A DNA stretch of 35,001 nt from Planctomycetales bacterium (GTDB taxonomy: Bacteria; Planctomycetota; Planctomycetia; Pirellulales; Pirellulaceae). Each line of letters opens with the position of its first letter. Within the stretch, counting starts at the first letter, position 1. The stretch spans positions 1 to 35,001 of the forward strand of contig JAGQPC010000281.1 of NCBI GenBank assembly GCA_020426925.1, written 5' to 3'. The notes under the pieces are model-generated. The model was given only the letters and a program-made list of their open reading frames with translations. It did no database searches and was not told where the DNA came from. The translations under genes and the position numbers were made by a program. Of the stretch, positions 26,528 through 30,305 are shown one piece after another.

Positions 26528-28204
26528 CTATGCAACCGACTCTGGAAACTCTGACGAGTGAATCAGCAACCTGCAGTTTAGTACTGGGTTTTCCCGACGA
26601 ACCAGTGCGGATTTCAATGCAAACTTCGTAGCCAGACTCTTGTCGTTCTTCACGTAGACAACGTTATCCAGGTGCAGGTCACGCCAGGAATCGTTGGACG
26701 CAATCTCTTCAATTTTCGCGCGAATATTGTCGCTCTCGCCAGCGTAGATTCCGAAATCACCAGACCGCAACACGAAGACGCCTGGGATTTCGAACTCAGA
26801 GCCTCGGCAATCGTCGATTGCGATCTGATCAAGCTTGCTACGTTTGCCCGTGTACAAAGATGAAAAATCCTTGGCACCAGTGCGTGCATCTTCGGATCGC
26901 TTGCGGATCGAAACTGCGGCTCGCCTGAAATCGAGTGATGAGATTTCTCGGTCCTGTGGACCAAACTCCTTGGCTAGTCTGTCAAATTCCGACGCACATT
27001 CAGGTGAACACAAAATGTTGTCCAAGGTCAGGTGATAGTCTATTGCCATCAATCTCCAGGCAACTTCACTGGCGAATCCAAACGAATTCATGTCTTCAGG
27101 AGTCAATTGCTTAAGGCGTTTGGTTGCTCGCGGCAGCTTGCCTGTTTTCCTTAGGCTTAGCAGGCCGCGATTCCAGTAAATCGCGTGTCCGCCTCCTCCA
27201 TTTTTGCGACACGTTTCTACAAACTGCGCATTAAGCTCTGGGTCGCACAGAATGTGGTCGGACGGGTAACCCATGCCTGCCTGCTGATATGCATCAACTA
27301 TGACTTGTGTTGCTTCGTCATCGTAAGCTTTTCCTTTTTTCTTACGGCCCTTTGCTGTAGCAGGTGCACTTTCGATTGGGTCAGCGGGTCCGTCGATTGG
27401 ATCTTCCAGCGAAGTAGCCGCAAGCCTTGATTTAATGTGGCTTACGTAATCTTCGGATAGCTCGAATCCCATCCACTGGCGGCCGAGTTTTTTGGCGACA
27501 CAAACGGTGGTTCCACTGCCACTAAAAGGGTCTAATACCAAGTCCTGCGGCATGCTGGACGCGCGGATGATTCGGGCTAATAGCTGTTCAGGCATTTGGC
27601 AGCCATGAAAGCCCTCTCGTTCCTTGAACGTGCCAGCGACTCTTGCGAAAAACCACGTGTCGTGATTTGGGCTGAAGCTCTCTGGAGCATCTTGCGGCCG
27701 CAGAATCCAAGTATTGTCAGGCAATCGCCCAAGCGGATTTGCACGATTGTCTCCATAAACAAGCTGTCGCGCTGACTTCACTCTTATTTGAGGATTGAAG
27801 CGGTTGAAAGTGAAGTTCTTTGGGTCTTTCACAAAGTGAAACAGATGAGTGTGCGAGCGGCTGAATCCGTTCACGCAATTCACACCGAAGGTGTAGTACC
27901 AGATCACCCAGCTGCGACAGTGGAATCCTGCCTTTTGAGCTTCGATCTTCAGTTCCGCGGCGTACTCGTCGCCAATTGCCAGCCAAAATGTGCCATCAGG
28001 CTTGAGAGCTCGATAGACGCCGCTTATCCATTCTTGGCTCCACGCGAGATAGTCGGAAGCGTGTCGCGAGTCGTCGTAGACGTCGTACTCGTATCCAATG
28101 TTAAATGGCGGATCTGCAAAAACGAGGTCGGCAGAACCCTCTTTCAATTTGCCAAGCAGTTTGACGCAATCACCCTGATGAATTTCATTTTTTCGCAGCG
28201 ACAC
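26528..28204 (-). CDS. Beta-class DNA methyltransferase fused to a GIY-YIG-like domain
   Basis: This is a 558-residue fusion. Residues 1-265 are an amino-methyltransferase (adenine N6 or cytosine N4). The catalytic D-P-P-F (31-34) comes before the SAM motif F-S-G-S-G (227-231), the order of the beta class. A linker with a Lys-rich patch (R-K-K-K-G-K) and two related central segments starting D-H-I-L-C-D-P-E-L and D-N-I-L-C-S-P-E-C follows. The last 84 residues resemble a GIY-YIG domain: G-V-F at 475-477, I-Y-A-G at 486-489, Arg495, and Glu538 in R-R-E-N-P-V-L-N, with the first Tyr replaced by Phe. The start is GTG (28202-28204), supported by GGAGG seven bases upstream (28212-28216). No restriction or specificity gene is nearby. 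Confidence 0.9.
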   Translation of the reverse strand: MSLRKNEIHQGDCVKLLGKLKEGSADLVFADPPFNIGYEYDVYDDSRHASDYLAWSQEWISGVYRALKPDGTFWLAIGDEYAAELKIEAQKAGFHCRSWVIWYYTFGVNCVNGFSRSHTHLFHFVKDPKNFTFNRFNPQIRVKSARQLVYGDNRANPLGRLPDNTWILRPQDAPESFSPNHDTWFFARVAGTFKEREGFHGCQMPEQLLARIIRASSMPQDLVLDPFSGSGTTVCVAKKLGRQWMGFELSEDYVSHIKSRLAATSLEDPIDGPADPIESAPATAKGRKKKGKAYDDEATQVIVDAYQQAGMGYPSDHILCDPELNAQFVETCRKNGGGGHAIYWNRGLLSLRKTGKLPRATKRLKQLTPEDMNSFGFASEVAWRLMAIDYHLTLDNILCSPECASEFDRLAKEFGPQDREISSLDFRRAAVSIRKRSEDARTGAKDFSSLYTGKRSKLDQIAIDDCRGSEFEIPGVFVLRSGDFGIYAGESDNIRAKIEEIASNDSWRDLHLDNVVYVKNDKSLATKFALKSALVRRENPVLNCRLLIHSSEFPESVA

Positions 28205-29088: not shown

Positions 29089-29132
29089 ACAGCGTGTCTA
29101 AACATTTCATTAGGATCGCAAGGGAAACTTTA

Positions 29133-30305
29133 ATGCGAATCTTGTTAGTTGGGCTGCTGGTAGTTGCAGCCGGTTGCACGCCAGCGAATGATGCTGCACC
29201 AGATCAGGAAGCGAGCACACCGTCGGCAAGCAATTCTGAAAACTCTCAGACTAGCAGTGAGCGACCAGAACCTACGGAGCTATCGGCACCGCAAGTCGCG
29301 ACCGAAGCGACCACCGGTACAGCAACGCCACCGCTTCAGAAGCAATTTCGAAAAATACAATTGGATTACCAATCGGCCGTTCGTGACTACCGAAGTCAAC
29401 TGCGACAGGCAACGACCGCTGAACAGAAAGCGGCGTTGCTAGAACGAACGCCCGATCTGTCCTCTGCGATCGAATCGGCGCTGCGGTTGTTTGATGGCCA
29501 TGAACAAGATCCCGAATATTTAACCATGGCGTCATGGATGATTCGCACCGCGCAGGATCCCTCGCCGATTGCTACGGTCCTTGAAGTTGTGAAGAAACAT
29601 CATTTGGGCAGCGAGCAAATTGCGGGCTTTTTGCTTCAAGGAATCGATCAAAATGTGCCGGTCGTCAACTCATTCGTAAGCGATTTGTCTGCCGAAGGCG
29701 GCATGCCAGCTTCAATGGTTGCTCGATTCCTTATGGCCTCGACGCTGAATCCCGTCACTGACGAACAACGCATCGTGCAAATGCTGCAAAGCGTTGTCGA
29801 ATTCCAGGGCAACGTCACTTATAACACGGTCGATTTTAAGAAGCTCGCAGACGGAAAACTGTTCAGCATTTTGCGGTTGAAGATTGGCGAAGAAGTACCC
29901 GACATTGTCGGCCCAGATCAAAACGGCACGGAGTTCAAGCTCTCCGGCTATCGCGGAAACGTGATCATGCTCGATTTTTGGGGTGACTGGTGACCTCCTT
30001 GCCGCGCGATGTACGCGCACGAGCGGTCGCTCGTCGAACGATACCAAGGAAAGCCGTTTGCACTCTTGGGTGTGAACACCGATCCACTTGAAGCCGTCCA
30101 ACAGATCTACGAGAAAAACAAAATCTCATGGCGGTCGTGGGTCCAGGGAAGCACCGAAGGTCCGGTCCCAATCAAATGGGATATTCAAACCTGGCCGACG
30201 ATTTTCCTGATCGATCATCGCGGAATCATCCGGCATAGGTTAGGTGTCGTGTCTCCACACGAACTGGATGCATTGATTGAGCGGTTGATGTCGGAGGTTG
30301 AATAA
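29133..30305 (+). CDS. TlpA/thioredoxin-like lipoprotein, probable selenoprotein (in-frame TGA)
   Basis: This redoxin has 390 residues if the TGA at 29991-29993 is decoded. The ATG at 29133 is preceded by AAGGGA and starts a lipoprotein signal ending V-V-A-A-G-C (Cys15). A long helical domain (about 60-245) precedes the thioredoxin fold (about 250-390): I-G-E-E-V-P-D-I-V-G, then V-I-M-L-D-F-W-G-D-W, TGA as residue 287, and P-P-C-R-A-M-Y. The stop therefore stands exactly where the first Cys of W-C-x-x-C belongs. The frame continues without a gap through G-V-N-T-D, the cis-Pro strand W-P-T-I-F-L-I-D and a normal end. A hairpin with a GGTC loop follows the TGA. Alternatives are a nonsense mutation or a base error. 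It ends one base before the convergent sulfatase gene. Confidence 0.75.
29996..30050 (+). promoter_or_regulatory. Candidate bacterial SECIS element after the in-frame TGA
   Basis: ACGAGC (30019-30024) and GCTCGT (30029-30034) form a perfect 6-bp stem capped by GGTC (30025-30028). That is the loop sequence recognised by SelB in the E. coli fdhF element. The loop starts 31 nt after the TGA, inside the range I know for bacterial SECIS elements (about 16-37 nt). TCCTTG (29996-30001) and CAAGGA (30045-30050) can close a lower helix, and a second small hairpin GCGCG/CGCGC (30004-30018) fits between. The sequence also encodes the redoxin residues after the active site, so codon constraint must be separated from RNA constraint. 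Confidence 0.6.

Follow-up and report, generated by a model that had tools for sequence, protein, structure and literature searches.

A predicted exported TlpA/ResA-like redoxin selenoprotein with a near-invariant SECIS hairpin in Planctomycetota

Several kinds of predicted selenoprotein resemble the gene described here. A "Prx-like thiol:disulfide oxidoreductase" (PF00578, in UxxC and UxxU forms) and a "Redoxin family protein" (PF08534, UxxC) have both been listed as predicted selenoproteins (PMC9312934, PMC13188914), the latter with HEU0032618.1 as its representative (PMC13188914), WP_010940744.1 being a further listed representative, and a TlpA-type selenoprotein with a WAxxUGC motif is modeled as NF041054. 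For planctomycetes, selenocysteine (Sec) machinery and selenoproteins are on record (PMC4807772). Here, we analyzed a 35,001-nucleotide stretch (hereafter, the window) from a metagenome-assembled genome (MAG) of a Planctomycetales bacterium, and we conclude with high confidence that the gene at 29133–30305 encodes a selenoprotein in which UGA 29991 is decoded as Sec.

Since the protein agrees with the PF00578 and PF08534 domain and motif definitions, we class it with these already listed kinds. Compared by those definitions, it shares with the Prx-like selenoproteins the domain, the UxxC motif, the occurrence of UxxU in some relatives, and a predicted thiol-disulfide exchange, but it differs from them in its probable export, its helical N-terminal domain, its near-invariant planctomycete SECIS, and the existence of two-domain double-Sec forms. 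Compared by description, the Redoxin family selenoprotein has a PF08534 match and UxxC in common with the window protein, and HEU0032618.1 could belong to the same family. ResA, TlpA, and CcmG are likewise exported or membrane-anchored redoxins and share the C-terminal fold, but the window protein has Sec for the first Cys and an additional helical domain; the ResA equivalog of NCBIfam scored 58 bits against a cut-off of 170, and the TlpA cut-off was not reached either. NF041054 also describes a TlpA/ResA-like selenoprotein, but its Sec motif is UGC whereas that of the window protein is UPPC (UxxC), and it scored 22 bits where its cut-off is 300; no NCBIfam model scored above its cut-off. The first-pass annotation had proposed a new selenoprotein and thought a membrane-anchored one with such a helical domain unusual in a planctomycete. 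Sec at the first Cys is supported, whereas UxxC redoxins were already listed (PMC9312934, PMC13188914), and the claim of unusualness was overstated, as planctomycete selenoproteins had been recorded (PMC4807772).

The gene is a single 390-residue frame interrupted solely by TGA 29991–29993 and terminating in TAA (Table 1). The TGA occupies the first position of the thioredoxin motif, in the context MLDFWGDW-TGA-PPCRAMY, and is followed by 103 codons before the stop. Across the TGA, the translation matched AhpC-TSA (PF00578; 66.6 bits, cut-off 26), the top Pfam family, and Redoxin (PF08534; 51.9 bits, cut-off 26.6), bearing out the earlier reading of one in-frame TGA at the first active-site Cys of a redoxin, followed by a thioredoxin C-terminus and a normal stop. 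A GTG at 29094 offers an alternative in-frame opening; ATG 29133, which is accompanied by a signal peptide, is the likely start codon. Elsewhere in the window, positions 26528–28204 on the reverse strand encode a DNA methyltransferase with a putative GIY-YIG-like C-terminal part (IYAGESDNIRAKIEEI).

Table 1. Features of the predicted selenoprotein gene, in window coordinates.
Feature	Coordinates	Strand	Basis
Predicted selenoprotein gene (390 residues, reading TGA as Sec; stop codon TAA)	29133–30305	+	Frame and homologues
Signal peptide; probable lipobox LLVVAAG-C with Cys15	29133–29177	+	Sequence; homologues
N-terminal all-helical repeat-like domain, residues 65–248	29325–29876	+	AlphaFold pLDDT 94 alone
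TlpA/ResA-like redoxin domain, residues 249–390	29877–30302	+	Pfam; ResA fold
Sec codon TGA (U287), in the nucleophile place of U-P-P-C	29991–29993	+	TGA in 49/49 loci; Cys paralogues TGC/TGT
Resolving Cys codon, C290	30000–30002	+	Invariant in A1
First small hairpin GCGCG-AUGUA-CGCGC just 3' of UGA	30004–30018	+	Register differs among relatives
Bacterial SECIS hairpin ACGAGC-GGUC-GCUCGU	30019–30034	+	31 nt from UGA to loop; pairing and codon conservation
Pro355 of conserved W-P-T	30195–30197	+	Invariant in A1

The AlphaFold model, built with 24 homologues as input, had a mean pLDDT of 85. In this predicted structure, residues 245–390 adopt the fold of ResA/TlpA (Z 21.6, with an rmsd of 1.5 across 135 residues), as the first-pass annotation had anticipated, with U287 and C290 in the places of the active-site cysteines; we take Pro355 to be the expected cis-Pro of thioredoxin folds. 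The same annotation had described a lipoprotein whose N-terminal domain is long and helical; both elements were recovered, the former as a probable lipobox. Homologues bear lipoboxes or plain signal peptides, and the protein is probably exported as a lipoprotein. For residues 65–248, no confident Pfam or PDB match was found; they weakly resemble helical-repeat solenoids (Z up to 9.0, for a designed repeat; lowest Foldseek E 0.09), and since there were such matches alone, a family assignment for this domain was dropped.

From fold and motif, we infer an exported thiol-disulfide reductase, the reductase direction included. The top rank of AhpC-TSA among the Pfam families would also suit a selenoprotein with another function, such as a peroxidase or an oxidase. 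We consider this unlikely, though it is the alternative to which we give most weight, as the motif is of the thioredoxin type (UxxC) and not of the peroxiredoxin type (TxxU), and the structures nearest to the redoxin domain are of the ResA, DsbE, and TlpA types.

Peptide patterns that excluded the TGA position, run against 84,980 species genomes, yielded 49 loci, a sample biased toward forms with the MLDFWGDW motif, which was among the patterns; TGA stood at the position of codon 287 in every one. The loci lie mostly on planctomycete MAGs from unrelated studies. A few are labeled otherwise, for example two family members on MAGs labeled Verrucomicrobia or Proteobacteria (L063, L028), pointing to gene transfer or misbinning. 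Cys forms, with TGC or TGT at the Sec position, were present among 60 relatives, as would be expected of a selenoprotein family. The hairpin described below is missing from these paralogues, in which the Ser of HERSL is often substituted (e.g., HEREL) and the Arg codon at the hairpin site is CGT, CGC, CGA, or CGG. In a tree of the redoxin domain, built on few columns, the Sec and Cys forms were not neatly separated (7 changes). The first-pass annotation had asked whether homologues carry Cys or TGA here and had raised the prospect of a stop in one strain alone; the 49 loci exclude the latter.

The same data bear on whether the TGA is a nonsense mutation, the mark of a pseudogene, or a sequencing error at a Cys codon. 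Such a fault is conceivable in a MAG, and a CysN/C-like gene of this one (on contig C889) does carry an error-like TGA at an Arg codon. However, the TGA recurs at the same codon across different assemblies, the frame past it is strongly conserved, the domain following it being the best-conserved region of the protein, and the hairpin is conserved alongside. We therefore regard a mutation or error as extremely improbable.

The published criteria for a bacterial SECIS element are a loop of 3–9 nt, a stem of 4–16 bp, a G in the first two loop positions, a spacing of 16–37 nt, and a minimum free energy of at most -7.5 (PMC13188914). The hairpin at 30019–30034, with its 4-nt GGUC loop, 6-bp stem, 31-nt spacing, and -7.9 kcal/mol, lies within all of these limits, whereas of the window's 590 TGA trinucleotides just 2.5% do so. 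ACGAGC-GGUC-GCUCGU or a near variant was found 25 nt past the TGA in nearly all Sec forms. Counted over related and hence non-independent sequences, standard pairing held in 99.5% of hairpin pair cells (65 distinct sites), and the G33–C40 pair was replaced by A–U, with both sides changed, in 6 of the 65. In the same non-independent set, the codons that form the hairpin were fixed, with Arg as CGG in 62/62, Ser as TCG in 60/60, and Leu as CTC in 57/58, against 17%, 21%, and 27% for these codons elsewhere in the same genes. The suggestion that a hairpin after the TGA was meaningful is thus well founded. The first small hairpin was also paired and covarying in most sequences, but its register shifts among relatives and it was set aside as part of the Sec signal. 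The folding energy of a wider 57-nt stretch was unremarkable (z -0.9), and an Rfam search returned no SECIS family, its sole match being a chance mir-557.

A lineage-wide code in which UGA always specifies an amino acid (Cys or Trp) would equally leave the frame open. Yet UGA ends genes of the window and 16 frames of the family, and the UGAs that are read through have the hairpin; we give such a code change hardly any credence.

The hairpin also identified the family without reference to protein sequence. Searching the 60 relatives for the hairpin alone produced 22 matches, compared with 5 in a reversed control. In 20 of the 22, an in-frame TGA within a redoxin domain preceded the start of the hairpin by exactly 28 nt, and 4 of these 20 were UxxU forms with two TGAs; the remaining two matches were unrelated. 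The TGA-N25-hairpin pattern occurred in 67 of 392 Planctomycetota genomes, spanning 46 genera, with none in the control, the genome sets comprising one genome per species and many MAGs. The pattern was not found in viral contigs.

UxxU redoxins at L108, L109, L110, and L128 (genomes G024, G046, and G044) carry two UGAs in TGA-CTG-ACG-TGA and a single invariant hairpin. Two-Sec proteins of another build appear at L055 (4428–5942), L057 (4479–5897), and L061 (4521–5891), where one frame encodes two redoxin domains and each of these carries a WGDWU motif and a SECIS hairpin.

A tRNA-Sec was counted when its match exceeded 58 bits and was about 96 nt long, weaker matches being taken as ordinary long-arm tRNAs. 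By this definition, we found it in 13/13 Sec-form genomes of the 60-genome set (source MAG included), as against 32/60 overall (Fisher p = 7e-5). All 12 Sec-form relatives besides the source MAG had selA at over 450 bits. Of the 6 hairpin-bearing genomes in a subset of 40 for which tRNA-Sec data were at hand, 5 had tRNA-Sec; in G089 (92% complete), the TGA-hairpin pattern was present and tRNA-Sec was not found.

The source MAG (9.15 Mb, 1273 contigs, 82.7% complete, 6.2% contamination) contains the window as contig C206. A tRNA-Sec gene lies on contig C271 (69 bits, ARAGORN anticodon UCA) and selD on contig C1223 (C1223:10767–11693, locus L125; 350 bits); the selD itself carries the Sec-TGA of known Sec-SelD (CAGUAGK) and a SECIS-like hairpin. 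The three contigs agree in GC content (0.53–0.54) and tetranucleotide use (r 0.95–0.97), which by composition fits, without proving, an origin in one organism. The gene thus shows what is used to recognize a bacterial selenoprotein, namely an in-frame UGA at a Cys position of homologues, conserved across organisms, in a genome with tRNA-Sec and selD. The search for Sec genes that the first-pass annotation had recommended was successful for selC and selD, but neither selA nor a selB above cut-off was found in this 82.7% complete MAG. The same search detected selB in 10/10 relatives with tRNA-Sec that were checked, and selA adjoins selB in four genomes (G001, G007, G026, and G033); G006 and G028, which have no true tRNA-Sec, also lack selB. 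The source MAG further lacks a counterpart of a match of about 400 residues and 150 bits, present in almost all checked relatives and, by its length, EF-Tu, which suggests simple assembly gaps. Given such gaps and the presence of selA in Sec-form relatives and of selB in relatives with tRNA-Sec, we regard both genes as missed rather than absent. A SelB-like match with a TGA on contig C889 proved to be the CysN/C-like protein noted above (C889:3468–4157, L124); its in-frame TGA replaces an expected Arg (GVV-TGA-KGDEV), away from any redox motif, and is probably an error or a mutation.

A second TlpA-like frame of the source MAG (C390:2719–3087, L123, TGA at 1013) has one TGA in WAPW-U-RAC. Its hairpin, GCCGC-AGUUC-GCGGC, fits the bSECIS model (spacing 25, -8.3 kcal/mol). 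By its sequence, it is probably a second UxxC selenoprotein of this genome, which together with selD would probably bring the selenoprotein genes of the source MAG to three.

In the mechanism that we propose, SelB carrying Sec-tRNA(Sec) would bind the GGUC-loop hairpin and thereby serve the ribosome at UGA 29991, so that Sec is incorporated in place of termination and translation proceeds to the end of the C-terminal redoxin domain. The protein would then be exported, probably as a lipoprotein, and U287-P-P-C290 would perform thiol-disulfide exchange of the TlpA/ResA type, with Sec as the attacking residue and Cys as the resolving one. A role in positioning the protein or in binding partners is probable for the helical N-terminal domain.

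Sec insertion in bacteria competes with termination, with 30–40% recoding in vivo (PMC4513850). It might accordingly be supposed that the UGA acts mostly as a stop, yielding a functional short helical lipoprotein, with the Sec form made when selenium is available. The confident fold predicted for the N-terminal domain by itself (pLDDT 94) would be in keeping with this regulated truncation. On the other hand, that domain is only 11–19% identical among homologues, whereas the domain after the UGA is the best conserved, and in some Sec members (L054, L058, and L055) the N-terminal part is short or different. We judge regulated truncation to be very unlikely and retain a full-length selenoprotein as the product.

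A literature search, covering few subscription papers, found no description of this architecture, of a frozen SECIS, or of a phylum-wide spread. The near-invariant phylum-wide SECIS, the UxxU paralogues, and the two-domain double-Sec forms thus appear to be undescribed. On balance, we favor the view that a large and so far undescribed group of exported selenoproteins exists in Planctomycetota, built on one portable, almost sequence-invariant SECIS cassette that dictates the peptide HERSLV, including two-domain forms with two Sec and two SECIS, and UxxU paralogues that decode two close UGAs by one hairpin. As gene callers stop at the UGA, these conserved redoxins are annotated as truncated helical proteins or missed; the invariant SECIS provides a simple DNA pattern for locating such genes without knowledge of the protein. 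The UxxU and double-domain forms offer a handle on how a single SECIS serves two close UGAs, and the Sec and Cys paralogues within the same genomes offer one on why the phylum retains selenium in exported redox proteins.
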